This document shows, in pieces, positions 24,170-30,307 of a stretch of 64,000 bases of DNA. The stretch is from Meridianimarinicoccus sp. MJW13. GTDB lineage: Bacteria > Pseudomonadota > Alphaproteobacteria > Rhodobacterales > Rhodobacteraceae. The notes under the pieces were generated by a model. That model had not been told where the DNA came from. It saw only the letters and a program-made list of their open reading frames with translations, and made no database searches. The stretch lies in assembly GCF_014901205.1 (NCBI RefSeq), contig NZ_JACNMU010000001.1, forward strand, positions 248,001 to 312,000, read 5' to 3'. The translations under genes were made by a program, and so were the position numbers. Positions within the stretch are counted from its first letter, which is position 1, and each line of letters begins with the position of its first letter.

Positions 24170-24757
24170 GGCCAAGGCTGACACAAGCTGCGGGGGAACG
24201 GCAAGTGATATTGCGGTGACAATCCGGGGGGTTGCCGGGTCGTGCCGCAGCGTTGTGCAAGGCGACCCGCACGGTGATTTCCCGCGCCGGGTGGGAAATT
24301 CCATACCCTGATGGGACCCGCGCAGCTCCGGCGTCAACAATTTGATGAGATTCGGCTGCTAGACCAAGGGCTGCCGGAACTGGTGCCGGAAACGGCCGGT
24401 GCAAAATGCACTCACCATGGCATTCGGATGACCCGAGGGGAGACCTCCTTGCCCCCGCGGGTCCGGCGGCGGCGCGCGCAGGACGCCAGTGCAGGCGCGC
24501 GCCGCCCCGCTGACCGACTAGACCCGTCGCGCGCGGCCGGGGGTGCAACGCCGCCCGCCCGCGAAGTCTGTCCGGCTCTCTGTAGGTACACCACATCGCT
24601 GGGCCGTCCGGTTCGCGGCCCGGCAGGGGGCATCCCCCGGTTCGATCCGGCATCCCTTGGCCAGCGCCTAGCGCCGCCTGCCCGGCGGCAGCCCGCCCCC
24701 CCCCCGCGCCGATTTTCGCCCGTGACACGGCCGCGAGACTGTGGTTTACCCCCTGCC
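24170..24757. other. About 590-bp non-coding gap with a C10 homopolymer
   Basis: Between the divergent ade gene and the TPP aptamer I see no convincing gene. Open frames here are rich in Arg, Pro and Ala in every frame and lack ribosome sites. The only landmark is a run of ten C at 24696-24705. The region presumably holds the ade promoter and the thi operon promoter. Confidence 0.5.
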
Positions 24758-24832
24758 CGAGACAGGGGCGCCCGCTGGGCTGAGACGTACCCTTGGAACC
24801 TGATCCGGTTGATCCCGGCGTAGGAAGTCTTG
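24758..24832 (+). ncRNA. TPP riboswitch aptamer (THI element)
   Basis: The conserved aptamer blocks appear in order: ACAGGGGCGCCCGC, GGGCTGAGACGTACCC, TTGGAACCTGATCCGG and CCGGCGTAGGAAGTC. GAC (24761-24763) and GTC (24827-24829) can pair as part of P1. It binds thiamine pyrophosphate and sits 60 bases before thiM, the first gene of a seven-gene thiamine operon. The following bases to 24892 form the expression platform with two alternative hairpins around the ribosome site. Confidence 0.95.
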
Positions 24833-24860
24833 CGGACCCGCCCCGTTGCTGCCCCGCATT

Positions 24861-24892
24861 GCCTCCTGCGTCTTGATAGGAGGCGCAAGACG
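24861..24892 (+). promoter_or_regulatory. thiM Shine-Dalgarno switch: two mutually exclusive hairpins
   Basis: Hairpin A pairs GCCTCCT (24861-24867) with AGGAGGC (24878-24884), burying the Shine-Dalgarno sequence AGGAGG. Hairpin B pairs CGTCTTG (24869-24875) with CAAGACG (24886-24892), leaving AGGAGG in its loop but involving the first base of the GTG start. Both have perfect 7-bp stems and share bases, so they cannot form together. This fits translational control by the TPP aptamer upstream. Confidence 0.7.
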
Positions 24893-25683
24893 TGACCACC
24901 CCCCCTGCCGAGGCCCTGCGCACCCTGCGTGCCCAGACCCCGCTGGTGCAATGCATCACCAATTTCGTGGCCATGAATTTCTCGGCCAACGTGCTGCTGG
25001 CGGCGGGCGCTGCCCCGGCCATGATCCATTGCGCCGAGGAAAGCGGCGATTTCGCCGGGGTCGTGGGCGCGCTGTCAGTGAACATCGGCACCCTGTCGCC
25101 GCCATGGGTCGACGGCATGCGCGCCGCCATCGCCGGGGCACAGGCGGCGGGCACGCCGTGGGTGCTGGACCCGGTCGGCCATTTCGCCACCCCCTACCGC
25201 GCCCGCGTCGCGCAAGACCTCGTGGACCTGCGCCCGACCATCATTCGCGGCAACGCCTCGGAAATCCTGGCACTGGCCGGTGAAGCGTCAGAAGGGCGTG
25301 GCGTCGATGCCAGCGATCCGGTCGCCGCCGCCGAAGGCGCCGCCCGGGCGCTGGCCGTCCGCACCGGCGGCACCGTGGCCATCACCGGCGAGGTTGATTT
25401 CGTCACCGACGGCACCCGCGCCCTGCGGATCCACGGCGGCCACCCGCTGATGCCCCGCGTCACCGCCACCGGCTGCGCCCTGTCCAGCCTCGTTGCCGCC
25501 TTCGCCGCCGTCACCGAGGACCCGTTCGACGCCACCGCCGCCGCCCTGACGCTGTTTGCCGCCGCCGGTCAGCGCGCGGGCATCGGTGCCGCCGGACCGG
25601 GAAGTTTCGCGCCCGCCTTTCTGGATGCGCTCTACCTTGCCAAGCCCGAGGATCTGGACTGGATCGAAAGGCACGCCGCATGA
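24892..25683 (+). CDS. thiM: Hydroxyethylthiazole kinase
   Basis: A 263-residue kinase that phosphorylates 4-methyl-5-(2-hydroxyethyl)thiazole, the thiazole salvage step of thiamine biosynthesis. Family segments: PLVQCITNFVAMNFSANVLLAAGAAPAM, LDPVGHFATPYR, IRGNASEILAL and VTATGCALSSLVAAF (the anion-hole and catalytic Cys region). The start is GTG at 24892, with AGGAGG 8 bases upstream held in the riboswitch hairpin. The stop overlaps thiE by the ATGA quartet. Confidence 0.96.
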   Translation: MTTPPAEALRTLRAQTPLVQCITNFVAMNFSANVLLAAGAAPAMIHCAEESGDFAGVVGALSVNIGTLSPPWVDGMRAAIAGAQAAGTPWVLDPVGHFATPYRARVAQDLVDLRPTIIRGNASEILALAGEASEGRGVDASDPVAAAEGAARALAVRTGGTVAITGEVDFVTDGTRALRIHGGHPLMPRVTATGCALSSLVAAFAAVTEDPFDATAAALTLFAAAGQRAGIGAAGPGSFAPAFLDALYLAKPEDLDWIERHAA

Positions 25684-26327
25684 GCCGCCGCCCCCTGCCC
25701 GACCTCTCGGCCTATCTGGTGCTCGACCCCGGCCTGTGCGGCGGCCCCGAGGGCATGATCGCCACCACCCGCGCTGCGCTGGCGGGCGGGATCACCGTGG
25801 TGCAACTGCGCGACAAGACCCATGGCACCGAAGCCCTGATCGACACCGGTCGGACGTTGATGCGCCTGCTGGAGGGCACCAAGGTAGCCCTGATCGTCAA
25901 CGATGACATCGATGCTGCGCTGGCCATCGGCGCCCACGGGCTGCACATCGGCCAGGGCGACCTACCGGTGGCCGAGGCCCGCGCCCGGCTGGGTGAAACC
26001 CCGCTGCTTGGCCTGTCGGTGGAAACCCCTGAACTTGCCGCGCAAGTGGATCCGGCCCTTGTCGATTACGTCGGCTGTGGCCCGGTCTTCGCCACCCCCA
26101 CCAAGACCGACCACAAGACCCCCGTGGGATTCGACGGTCTGGCCCGGATCGTGGCCGCCGCCCCGGTGCCCGCCGTGGCCATCGGCGGGCTGAAGCCCGA
26201 ACATGCGCGAGACGCCCTGAGGGCCGGCGCACAGGGCCTTGCCGTGGTTTCGGCCATCTGCGGCCAGCCCGACGCGCAAGCCGCCACACACACCCTTGTC
26301 ACCGCGCTCTCGGAGGCCCGCTCATGA
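25680..26327 (+). CDS. thiE: Thiamine phosphate synthase
   Basis: A 215-residue TIM-barrel enzyme joining HMP pyrophosphate and thiazole phosphate into thiamine phosphate. Signatures are GGITVVQLRDKTHGTEALI, LIVNDDIDAALAIGAHGLHIGQGDLPV, DYVGCGPVFATPTKTDH and AIGGLKPEHARDALRAGAQGLAVVSAI. Cysteine and phosphate-site positions look intact. The gene overlaps both thiM and thiD by ATGA, so it is in the middle of a tightly coupled operon. Confidence 0.96.
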   Translation: MSRRPLPDLSAYLVLDPGLCGGPEGMIATTRAALAGGITVVQLRDKTHGTEALIDTGRTLMRLLEGTKVALIVNDDIDAALAIGAHGLHIGQGDLPVAEARARLGETPLLGLSVETPELAAQVDPALVDYVGCGPVFATPTKTDHKTPVGFDGLARIVAAAPVPAVAIGGLKPEHARDALRAGAQGLAVVSAICGQPDAQAATHTLVTALSEARS

Positions 26328-27157
26328 TCCCCAACGTGCTGTCCATCGCCGGCTCCGACCCCTCGGGCGGCGCCGGCATCCAGGCCGACCTCAAGGCAAT
26401 CTCGGCGCGCGGTTGCTACGCCATGGCCGCGCTGACGGCCCTGACCGCGCAGAACACCACCGGCGTCACCGGCGTGCACCTTGTGCCGCCGGCCTTCGTC
26501 GCCGACCAGATCGCCACCGTCTTTGCCGATGTGCGCGTCGATGCGGTGAAGATCGGCATGATCGCCACCGCCGAGATCGCCGAGGCGGTGTCCCGCGCCC
26601 TTGCCCCGCATCGCGGCATTCCGGTGGTGCTGGACCCGGTGATGATCGCCAAGGGCGGGGCGGCCCTGCTGGACCCCAATGCGGTCGAAGCGCTGACCCG
26701 CCACCTGCTGCCGCTGGCCACCCATCTGACACCCAACCTGCCCGAAGGCGCGGCCCTGCTGGGCGCGTCCCCCGCCACCACCCGCGCGGCGATGGAGGAC
26801 CAGGCCACCGCCCTGCGCGCCTTCGGCCCCCGCACGGTGCTGCTGAAGGGCGGCCACCTGCCCGGCGACCAAAGCCCGGACCTGCTGGTCTCGGACCACG
26901 GCCTGCGCTGGTTCGAAGCCGCCCGCATTCCCACCGCCAACACCCATGGCACCGGCTGCACCCTGTCCTCGGCGCTGGCGGCCGAACTGGCCATGGGCGC
27001 CTCGGATCCCGAAGCGGTGCGCACCGCCAAATCCTATGTCACCGGCGCGGTTGCCAGGGCGGGCGAGCTTTCCGTCGGCCACGGCCACGGCCCGACCCAT
27101 CATTTCCACGCCTATTGGCCGCCCGCGGCCACCTATCCCGAAAGGACCCAAGGATGA
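26324..27157 (+). CDS. thiD: Hydroxymethylpyrimidine/phosphomethylpyrimidine kinase
   Basis: A 277-residue ribokinase-fold enzyme that phosphorylates HMP and HMP phosphate. Motifs: SIAGSDPSGGAGIQADLKAISARGCYAMAALTALTAQNT at the start, LDPVMIAKGGAALLD in the middle and NTHGTGCTLSSALAAELA with the catalytic GTGC. It supplies the pyrimidine half that thiE joins. It overlaps thiE and thiY by ATGA quartets. Confidence 0.97.
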   Translation: MIPNVLSIAGSDPSGGAGIQADLKAISARGCYAMAALTALTAQNTTGVTGVHLVPPAFVADQIATVFADVRVDAVKIGMIATAEIAEAVSRALAPHRGIPVVLDPVMIAKGGAALLDPNAVEALTRHLLPLATHLTPNLPEGAALLGASPATTRAAMEDQATALRAFGPRTVLLKGGHLPGDQSPDLLVSDHGLRWFEAARIPTANTHGTGCTLSSALAAELAMGASDPEAVRTAKSYVTGAVARAGELSVGHGHGPTHHFHAYWPPAATYPERTQG

Positions 27158-28092
27158 GAACCCTTGCCGCCTCTGCCCTCGCCCTGATGCTTGCCCTGCC
27201 CGCGCAGGCCGCCGACGAGATGACCCTGATCCTCGACTGGTTCGTGAACCCCGATCACGGGCCGATCATCGTCGCGCAGGAATTGGGCTATTTCGCAGAA
27301 CAGGATCTTGAGGTCGAGATCATTGCCCCCGCCGATCCCTCGGACCCGCCCAAGATGGTGGCCGCGGGCCGCGCCGATCTGGGCGTCTCCTACCAGCCGC
27401 AACTGCATCTTCAGGTCGCCGAAGGGTTGCCGCTGATCCGCGTCGGCACGCTGGTCGCCACGCCGCTGAACTGCCTGCTGGTGCTGGAAGACGGCCCGGT
27501 CAAGACCCTCGCCGATCTGGACGGCCGCAAGGTCGGCTTCTCGGTCGCCGGTGTCGAAGAGGCGCTGCTGACCAAGATCCTGTCCAACGGCGGGCTGACC
27601 ATGGACGACATCAAACTGGTCAACGTCAACTGGTCTCTGTCGCCCGCGCTGATGGCCGGTCAGGTGGATGCGGTCATCGGCGCCTTTCGCAACTTCGAAC
27701 TCAACCAGATGGAGATCGAGGGCATCGCGGGCCGCTGCTTCTATCTGGAGGAAGAAGGCATCCCCGCCTATGACGAACTGATCTACGTCGCCAACCCGGA
27801 CACCATGGATGCCGACATGATCCGCCGCTTCCTGACCGCCACGGAACTGGCCACCCAATACATCATCAACAACCCCGAAGCCGCGTGGGAGGTGTTCTCG
27901 GGCACCGCCAAGGAGCTTCAGGACGAGTTGAACGCCAAGGCCTGGGTCGACACCTATCCGCGCTTCTCCCTGACGCCGGCCGGTCTGGACGCGGGCCGCT
28001 ACGCACGGTTCGAGGCTTTCCTTGCCGACAGCGGTCTGGTCGAAGGCACCCGCCCGGTGTCGCAACTGGCCGTGGATCTGGGCGCGCAATGA
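27154..28092 (+). CDS. thiY: Thiamine pyrimidine precursor-binding protein (ThiY, NMT1/THI5-like)
   Basis: A 312-residue periplasmic solute-binding protein. The signal peptide is residues 1-20 (ending PAQA). The NMT1/THI5-like domain starts at LILDWFVNPDHGPIIVAQELGYFAEQDLEVEIIAPADPSDPPKMV and includes VSYQPQLHLQVAEG. The family binds formylaminopyrimidine or related thiamine pyrimidine degradation products for the ThiXYZ ABC transporter. Permease and ATPase genes lie downstream, with tenA between, so uptake and hydrolysis of the product are linked. It overlaps thiD and tenA by ATGA. Confidence 0.93.
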   Translation: MRTLAASALALMLALPAQAADEMTLILDWFVNPDHGPIIVAQELGYFAEQDLEVEIIAPADPSDPPKMVAAGRADLGVSYQPQLHLQVAEGLPLIRVGTLVATPLNCLLVLEDGPVKTLADLDGRKVGFSVAGVEEALLTKILSNGGLTMDDIKLVNVNWSLSPALMAGQVDAVIGAFRNFELNQMEIEGIAGRCFYLEEEGIPAYDELIYVANPDTMDADMIRRFLTATELATQYIINNPEAAWEVFSGTAKELQDELNAKAWVDTYPRFSLTPAGLDAGRYARFEAFLADSGLVEGTRPVSQLAVDLGAQ

Positions 28093-28772
28093 GTGCGCCC
28101 GATTATGGCCGCGCCTTCGCCCTGTGGCGGGCTGGCGCGGCGGACCCTTGGCAGGCCTATACCCGGCACGCCTTCGTCGAAGGGCTGAAGGACGGCACCC
28201 TGCCACGCGAAAACTTCCTGCACTACCTGGTGCAGGACTATGTGTTCCTTGTGCATTTCTCGCGCGCCTGGGCGCTGGCGGTCACCAAGTCCCGCACGTT
28301 GGACGAGATGAAGGCCGCCGCCGCCACGGTGAACGCGCTGGTCAACCACGAGATGCAGTTGCATGTGACCACCTGCGCCGAGGCCGGCATCTCCGAGGAG
28401 GACCTGTTCACCGCCACCGAACGGCCCGAGAACCTCGCCTATACCCGCTATGTGCTGGATGCCGGCCATTCCGGCGATCTGGCCGACCTGTTGGCGACGC
28501 TGGCCCCTTGCGTGCTGGGCTATGGCGAGATCGGCGCGCGGCTTTCGGTCGAACGGGCCGCCGACACCCCTTACGGCGATTGGATCGAGACCTATGGCGG
28601 GGCCGAATATCAGGATCTCTGCCGCGACACTGGCGCGATGATCGACGCCGCCCTTGCCCGCCGCATCGGGCCGGAGTTCGATGCCGCCCCGCGCTGGCCC
28701 GAATTGCAGGCGCAGTTCACCCGCGCCACGGCGCTGGAAGTCGGCTTCTGGGACATGGGGATGACCCCGTGA
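28089..28772 (+). CDS. tenA: Aminopyrimidine aminohydrolase TenA (thiaminase II)
   Basis: A 227-residue all-helical protein of the TenA/THI-4 family. It hydrolyses aminopyrimidine (thiamine degradation) products to HMP. Catalytic and binding candidates are Cys141 in LAPCVLGYGEIG and Glu217 in TALEVGFWDMG, equivalent to the conserved Cys and Glu of TenA. It lies between the ThiY and ThiZ genes, an order that suits salvage of pyrimidine taken up by ThiXYZ and phosphorylation by ThiD. It starts inside the thiY stop (ATGA). Confidence 0.95.
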   Translation: MSAPDYGRAFALWRAGAADPWQAYTRHAFVEGLKDGTLPRENFLHYLVQDYVFLVHFSRAWALAVTKSRTLDEMKAAAATVNALVNHEMQLHVTTCAEAGISEEDLFTATERPENLAYTRYVLDAGHSGDLADLLATLAPCVLGYGEIGARLSVERAADTPYGDWIETYGGAEYQDLCRDTGAMIDAALARRIGPEFDAAPRWPELQAQFTRATALEVGFWDMGMTP

Positions 28773-28842: not shown

Positions 28843-29565
28843 ATGAGCGCCCCGGCGATCCGGGTTTCGGGTCAGGCCGAAATCGGCGGCGCGACGCTGT
28901 TCGGCCCGCTGGACCTGACACTGGAACCCGGCGGCTGGACCTGTCTGCTGGGACCGTCGGGCGTCGGCAAATCCACTATCCTGCGGCTGATCGCCGGGCT
29001 GGACACCGGCGCCCGCTTCACCGGCCAGATCACCGCCGACGGCGGCCCGCTCCCCCCTTCGCACCTGGCCTATATGGCCCAGGACGACCTGCTGCTGCCG
29101 TGGCGCAGCGTGCTGGGCAACGTGATGCTGGGGGCCGAGTTGCGCGGCCAGAAGGCGGAACGGGCGCGCGCCGAAAAACTCCTTTCAGATGTTGGACTTG
29201 CGGCCCATTCCGGCAAGCGGCCCGCGGCGCTTTCGGGCGGTCAGCGGCAACGCGTGGCGCTGGCCCGCACGCTGATGGAAGATCGCCCCGTGGTGCTGCT
29301 GGACGAGCCGTTTTCGGCGCTGGACGCCCGCACCCGCGCCGACATGCAGGATCTGGCCTTCGGCCTGCTGGCCGGGCGCAGCGTGCTGCTGGTCACCCAT
29401 GATCCGGCCGAGGCCGCGCGGCTGGGCCACCGCATCTTCGTGCTGGAATCCCATGGGCTTGCGCAGATGCCCACGCCCCCCGGTGCGCCGCTGCGCGCGG
29501 TGGACGACCCCGCCCTGCTGACGGCGCAGGCACAGCTTCTGCAACACCTGCGCGGGAAGGCGTAA
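28843..29565 (+). CDS. thiZ: Thiamine precursor ABC transporter, ATP-binding protein
   Basis: A 240-residue ABC ATPase: Walker A GPSGVGKST, Q-loop YMAQDDLLLPW, signature LSGGQRQRVALARTL, Walker B VVLLDEPFSALD and H-loop LLVTHDP are all intact. It energises import through ThiX with ThiY as the binding protein. The ATG at 28843 is 70 bases after tenA, the only sizeable gap in the operon, but no terminator is evident there. ThiX follows 1 base later. Confidence 0.92.
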   Translation: MSAPAIRVSGQAEIGGATLFGPLDLTLEPGGWTCLLGPSGVGKSTILRLIAGLDTGARFTGQITADGGPLPPSHLAYMAQDDLLLPWRSVLGNVMLGAELRGQKAERARAEKLLSDVGLAAHSGKRPAALSGGQRQRVALARTLMEDRPVVLLDEPFSALDARTRADMQDLAFGLLAGRSVLLVTHDPAEAARLGHRIFVLESHGLAQMPTPPGAPLRAVDDPALLTAQAQLLQHLRGKA

Positions 29566-29566
29566 C

Positions 29567-30307
29567 ATGGGCGCCCGGATCCTGAACGCGCTGTTCGTGA
29601 CCGCCGTGCTGCTGGGGCTGTGGCAGGCGCTGGTGACGCTGGCCGATCTGCCGCCCTTCATCCTGCCCGGCCCGGTCCGGGTGGCGCAGGCCCTGTGGAA
29701 CAATGCCGGGCTGATCGGCTGGCACGCGCTGGTGACCTTTTCCGAAGTGCTGGCGGGGCTGGTGCTGGGATCCCTGCTGGGGATCGTCACGGCGCTGCAA
29801 CTGGCCACCTCGGGGCTGGCGCGGCGGCTGATCCGCCCGGCGCTGGTGCTGACCCAGGCGCTGCCGGTCTTCGCGCTGGCGCCGATCCTGACCCTGTGGC
29901 TGGGTTACGGGCTGTGGTCGAAGGTGCTGATGGCGGTGCTGATCATCTATTTCCCCGTCACCTCGGCCTTTTTCGACGGGCTGATGCAGACCCCGCGCGG
30001 CTATCTGGATCTGGCCCAGACCATGCAGGCGACACCGCGTCAGAGGCTTTGGCGCATCCGCGTGCCCGCCGCGCTTCCGGGACTGGCCTCGGGCCTGCGG
30101 CTGGCCGCGGTCTATGCCCCCATCGGGGCAGTGATCGGGGAATGGGTCGGGGCCAGCAACGGGCTTGGCTACCTGATGCTGCTGGCCAATGGCCGCGCCA
30201 AGATCGACCTGATGTTCGCAGCGCTGGTTGTGCTGGCCTGCCTGACGCTGACCCTGCACGTGCTGGTCAGCCGGGCCTGTGACCGGCTGACCGCGCGGAT
30301 GGTCTAG
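29567..30307 (+). CDS. thiX: Thiamine precursor ABC transporter, permease
   Basis: A 246-residue inner-membrane permease with about six membrane segments. The coupling motif region is EWVGASNGLGYLMLLANGRAKIDLMFAALV, matching the EAA loop of binding-protein-dependent transporters. It is the last gene of the thi operon. Its TAG stop sits inside a palindromic CTAG that also serves as the stop codon of the convergent mscS gene. Confidence 0.92.
   Translation: MGARILNALFVTAVLLGLWQALVTLADLPPFILPGPVRVAQALWNNAGLIGWHALVTFSEVLAGLVLGSLLGIVTALQLATSGLARRLIRPALVLTQALPVFALAPILTLWLGYGLWSKVLMAVLIIYFPVTSAFFDGLMQTPRGYLDLAQTMQATPRQRLWRIRVPAALPGLASGLRLAAVYAPIGAVIGEWVGASNGLGYLMLLANGRAKIDLMFAALVVLACLTLTLHVLVSRACDRLTARMV

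Follow-up and report, generated by a model that had tools for sequence, protein, structure and literature searches.

The window, a 64,000-nucleotide stretch of DNA from Meridianimarinicoccus sp. MJW13, very probably carries a standard translational OFF-type TPP riboswitch in front of thiM. It has a sequestor/anti-sequestor design, and a second hairpin that reaches the start codon (hairpin B) is most likely incidental to it. What is directly supported is the aptamer match, the pairings themselves, and comparative support for hairpin A, which buries the SD, and, more weakly, for the anti-sequestor; there is no comparative support for hairpin B. All features described here lie on the + strand, and positions are those of the window.

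We infer TPP binding, the direction of switching and the effect on translation, in the following scheme. Without TPP, the 3' strand of the aptamer (24817-24825) would pair with the anti-SD arm (24864-24872). This anti-sequestor pairing would break the aptamer and free the SD from hairpin A, so that the thiM salvage operon could be translated, as we propose. With TPP, P1 and the aptamer core would hold 24817-24825 and the anti-SD arm would be released. The released arm would then form hairpin A with the SD (24861-24867 with 24878-24884), and initiation would be stopped.

The aptamer and the operon that it precedes

A cmscan search detected a TPP riboswitch aptamer (RF00059) at 24754-24843, with 66.2 bits against a gathering score of 54.3 and an E value of 8.8e-11. 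The match was full-length (model positions 1-105 of 105), and it was the single RF00059 match reported genome-wide. According to the Rfam alignment, P1 consists of the 5' strand CGAGAC (24758-24763) and the 3' strand GUCUUG (24827-24832). The aptamer ends 48 bases before the start of thiM and sits in the leader of a group of thiamine genes, thiM-thiE-thiD-thiY-tenA. A preliminary description, made from the letters of the window, had placed a TPP riboswitch ahead of thiM, and the Rfam match together with the downstream genes bears this out. We found no terminator-like site in 24400-25000, which ruled out an intrinsic terminator between the aptamer and the gene. The full leader and the platform folded no better than their shuffled versions (z -0.54 and -0.75, respectively).

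The ThiM protein (hydroxyethylthiazole kinase) reads from the GTG at 24892, the gene extending to 25683 (NCBIfam TIGR00694, 269.5 bits, cut-off 256.4; PF02110). At the position of this start, close relatives have ATGACC or ATGACT. The next genes are thiE (25680-26327; TIGR00693, 189.4 bits, cut-off 145.1), thiD (26324-27157; TIGR00097, 310.4 bits, cut-off 204.95), a gene for a presumably thiY-like substrate-binding protein (27154-28092; PF09084 NMT1/THI5, 248.8 bits) and one for a tenA-like thiaminase II (28089-28772; TIGR04306, 138.3 bits, cut-off 130). They are followed by genes for an ABC ATPase (28843-29565; PF00005) and an ABC permease (29567-30307; PF00528), which by their position would be thiZ-like and thiX-like. 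Profile searches of the whole genome gave no match to ThiC (PF01964) or ThiG (PF05690); the same models matched in 13 of 14 and 14 of 14 control genomes, respectively. Because the genome has no ThiC or ThiG match, the switch appears to govern a salvage operon. Thiamine precursors are thus probably salvaged through the thiM operon, under one TPP switch.

In a genome of the same genus (G003), a TPP leader of the thiM type, with a stem that sequesters the SD (L033:1505-1830), is followed by a frame of 8 codons (ATG at 1648, by eye) and then by a gene at 1811 that, by eye, resembles the thiY of the window. No ThiM match was found in G003, a pattern suggestive of thiM loss with retention of the TPP leader. 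In another genome (G402), the ThiM match at locus L132 contains one internal TAG stop, with a TPP-like leader, judged by eye, upstream.

Leaders used for comparison

Leaders were taken from 394 genomes of the family (59 with a ThiM match at an E value of 1e-20 or below), from 25 named loci and from members of the genus. From the 87 loci we obtained 65 distinct leaders in which both an aptamer pattern and a start were recognised, the duplicates L044 and L047 having been removed. In 20 of the 87 loci no aptamer was recognised by the pattern that we used, yet L054, L064, L082 and L025 match RF00059 and L008 shows an aptamer. Sixty-one of the 65 leaders were tested; L020, L050, L055 and L075 were left out for implausible starts. 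By their titles, two of the 61 come from outside the family of the window: L012 (Breoghania) and L013 (a deltaproteobacterial MAG). The family tests cover thiM leaders.

For each candidate helix, we compared the duplex energies of arms from the same leader with those of arms mispaired between leaders, in 2000 permutations that ignore relatedness. Tests with narrow windows were performed on 59 leaders for P1 and on 60 for the anti-sequestor. P1 served as a positive control, and none of the 2000 permutations was as good as its own arms (59 leaders). We also compared nine close leaders, namely that of the window, six from other members of the genus and two from another genus (G131 and G399). The platform arms were poorly aligned when these nine were submitted to MAFFT.

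Hairpin A as the sequestor

Hairpin A is a perfect 7-bp stem between the anti-SD arm GCCUCCU (24861-24867) and the SD arm AGGAGGC (24878-24884), the latter containing the SD itself (AGGAGG, 24878-24883). Over the 61 thiM leaders, most of them from the family of the window, none of 2000 permutations was as good as the own arms, and the own pair fell within the best 10% of its row in 11 leaders, with about 6 expected. All nine close leaders, window included, had an A-type stem that covers the SD or reaches into it, although that of G004 reached only the last two bases of GGAGG. The pairs varied from leader to leader (GCCUCCU/AGGAGGC, CAGCUUCC/GGAGGCUG and GAAACC/GGUUUC), so that the relatives show an SD-burying helix with compensating changes, in G004 partially. 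Since the best stem was chosen in each close leader, these stems are partly fitted, and the permutation test is the fairer evidence for hairpin A. Judged from the sequences, hairpin A is the sequestor. The preliminary description was right in presenting it as a perfect 7-bp stem that buries the SD.

Helix C as the anti-sequestor

The strand GGCGUAGGA (24817-24825), in the conserved 3' part of the aptamer, can form nine pairs, two of them G-U, with UCCUGCGUC (24864-24872). This helix C is part of the minimum-energy fold, the predicted ligand-free one. Its 5' strand belongs to the aptamer, and its 3' strand partly overlaps both the anti-SD arm of hairpin A and the left arm of hairpin B. The preliminary description placed hairpins A and B correctly; it overlooked helix C and also an 8-bp complementarity between 24827-24834 and 24884-24891, which is considered below.

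With narrow windows, 11 of 2000 permutations were as good as the own arms of helix C (60 leaders), and the anti-SD arm was in the best 10% of the segments of its own platform in 22 of these 60 leaders. With wide windows, the result was weak: 107 of 2000 permutations were as good (61 leaders) and the own pair lay within the best 10% of its row in 5 leaders, about 6 being expected. Among the close leaders, that of G003 had just a 5-bp alternative elsewhere.

When each helix was forced and the leader left otherwise free, the energies were -55.6 kcal/mol for the anti-sequestor, -53.4 for hairpin A and -52.8 for hairpin B, within 3 kcal/mol of each other. At 37 °C, the probability of helix C was 0.45-0.77 without constraint on P1 and 0 with P1 enforced. 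In the free segment 24754-24910 the anti-sequestor had a probability of 0.76 and hairpin A of 0.21, 29% of the SD being unpaired; with P1 enforced, hairpin A rose to 0.975 and the unpaired SD fell to 1%. In the free segment 24740-24930, hairpin A (0.53) was slightly more probable than the anti-sequestor (0.45). The predicted TPP-free SD was still mostly paired (16-29% unpaired at 37 °C). The start codon was unpaired to 14-20% in the free whole leader versus 27% with P1 enforced, the opposite of the expected direction. In these models, the exchange of helix C for hairpin A on enforcement of P1 is what would be expected of an OFF switch.

By energies and ensembles, helix C represents an anti-sequestor that excludes both the aptamer and the sequestor, with comparative support in the narrow windows (11/2000) and less in the wide ones (107/2000). 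It is better supported than hairpin B as the alternative to hairpin A and corresponds to an ordinary anti-sequestor. The alternative pairing of the E. coli thiC type is said to involve the P1 5' strand, whereas that of the window uses the GGCGUAGGA strand of the aptamer. Such an anti-P1 pairing with the P1 5' strand gave no signal in our leaders, 1124 of 2000 permutations being as good (59 leaders), and was discarded.

Complementarity around the start codon

Hairpin B pairs CGUCUUG (24869-24875) with CAAGACG (24886-24892), the last base being the G of the GTG start. As the preliminary description had claimed, the stem is perfect over 7 bp and touches the start codon. The same text held that the two hairpins share bases. 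This is not the case: the 7-bp stems have no nucleotide in common, and their arms are interleaved in the order a-b-a'-b', so that mutual exclusion holds only if each forms as a nested hairpin. An overlap, at 24867-24868, arises only when both are extended by G-U pairs to 9 pairs, and B with this wobble extension would span all three bases of the GTG.

We estimated how often such a stem arises by chance. A perfect stem of at least 7 bp touching the start codon occurred in 0.28% of 5000 dinucleotide shuffles and in 1.3% of 20000 shuffles that kept the arms of A; given the real upstream sequence, shuffled spacers gave an equally long stem in 2.6% of cases and random spacers in 0.5%. Among the real leaders, 2 of 61 (the window and L061) had a perfect stem of 7 bp or more that touches the start codon, and 4 of 61 (L061, L090, L070 and the window) had one whose right arm places 5 or more bases in the SD-start spacer or the start codon. 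The start-touching stem of L061 is the sequestor itself, and L090 has an SD-covering stem of equal length. Hairpin B is therefore uncommon for one leader, yet it is not unique and was chosen after the fact, which makes it all the more compatible with an incidental match.

The preliminary description took A and B as two alternative switch hairpins, B looping out the SD while pairing the start codon, a reading that we consider extremely unlikely. It can call on the presence of both perfect 7-bp stems, on the low chance rate of B (0.28-2.6% per leader, depending on the null), on a duplex energy of -12.1 for B, which ranks 1-2 of 61 against mismatched arms, and on the finding that B forced in the free leader was only 0.6 kcal/mol worse than A forced. 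However, the covariation that the description had proposed as a check did not appear. None of the 8 other close leaders (6 of 6 other genus members, 2 of 2 of another genus) had a B-type stem of more than 4 pairs, and over the 61 leaders there was no signal, 1204 of 2000 permutations being as good; the own B-like pair was within the best 10% of its row in 7 leaders, with about 6 expected. The hairpin alone was also about 5 kcal/mol weaker than A (-6.9 versus -12.2 kcal/mol) and 6.2 kcal/mol worse than A with P1 formed, and its pairing probability did not exceed 0.006 in any computed ensemble. Furthermore, a 10-nt loop holding the SD next to a paired start codon would offer no obvious ON state, and by its pairings no part of B would respond to P1, as the anti-sequestor would. 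On energies, permutations, close relatives and ensembles, we reject hairpin B as a switch state, and it is most likely an incidental complementarity. We consider it equally unlikely that A and B coexist in a compact H-type pseudoknot (arm order a b a' b'), which in the OFF state would bury the SD as well as the start codon. The order of the arms, the connectors of 1, 2 and 1 nt and the lack of any base in common would suit this fold, but the arms of B were not found in the 8 other close leaders, and a single nucleotide, 24885, would be left to span a 7-bp stem; unless the outer pairs of A came apart, this is sterically implausible.

The other complementarity missed in the preliminary description concerns the 3' strand of P1. 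Its extended form GUCUUGCG (24827-24834) is perfectly complementary over 8 bp to the SD-start spacer CGCAAGAC (24884-24891), and the left arm of hairpin B repeats its GUCUUG (second copy at 24870-24875). The spacer is complementary to the P1 3' strand in the species of the window and partly in G006; to the copy at 24870-24875, it is so only in the window among the close leaders. This strand might pair with the spacer as an extra lock, in competition with P1, although we regard this as highly unlikely. In its favour, the 8 bp of the window rank 1-2 of 61 in energy, and a differing version with 8 pairs (GUCUUGGC/GCCAAGAU, 7 Watson-Crick pairs and one G-U) exists in G006, a member of the same genus; 11 of the 61 leaders had their own pair within the best 10% of its row, against about 6 expected, and the pairing reached a probability of 0.13-0.24 in free ensembles at 37 °C. 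Yet the mean over the 61 leaders gave no signal (683 of 2000 permutations did as well), stretches in the other 7 close leaders were at most 5 consecutive pairs long, and in a second genus the pairing was not maintained: of 8 leaders there in which an aptamer was recognised, L042 alone had it complete, judged by eye. Such a lock would also stop initiation in the absence of TPP, which is the wrong direction for repression by TPP. The pairing was rejected on the permutation mean and the second genus, its backing beyond the window and G006 being at most slight. More broadly, a lineage-specific third layer over an ordinary sequestor, with the start site locked by P1-strand exchange or by the A+B pseudoknot, seems very improbable to us; if true, P1-strand exchange would add a new layer to a well-studied class of riboswitches.

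Discussion

The preferred reading, a translational OFF-type switch built on hairpin A and helix C, describes an ordinary case, in which a single translational TPP switch controls the operon for vitamin B1 salvage of a genome that lacks any ThiC or ThiG match. Hairpin B illustrates that, in a GC-rich leader, a perfect local hairpin does not count as evidence of a switch state without agreement from relatives and ensemble energies.

Passages of the literature describe systems of the same kind. In Barrick and Breaker (2007, PMC2258182), sequestor/antisequestor switches are presented as OFF switches built from a simple RBS hairpin and an antisequestor that cannot form together with it. For the E. 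coli thiC TPP switch, the relevant part of PMC5234074 describes an OFF state in which RBS and start codon are both sequestered, and an anti-P1 ON state. Because the E. coli thiC switch is so described, pairing of the start codon is not new in a TPP switch, as opposed to the unusual design that the preliminary description saw in it. Excerpts on E. coli tbpA mention a GUG start and an anti-P1 ON state (PMC11487190), and those on E. coli thiM mention SD sequestration (PMC3280964). Among the titles and abstract openings listed by literature searches, none named the thiM leader of the window. As far as these passages go, E. coli thiM, thiC and tbpA share with the window, where these elements are predicted, a TPP aptamer, sequestration of the SD in the bound state and an alternative pairing in the free state, by anti-P1 or anti-SD exchange, and the GUG start is common to E. 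coli tbpA (PMC11487190) and the thiM of the window. Compared with the platforms covered by the passages from Barrick and Breaker (2007, PMC2258182), that of the window is the same in kind, the complementarity of hairpin B being peculiar to it among the nine close leaders.
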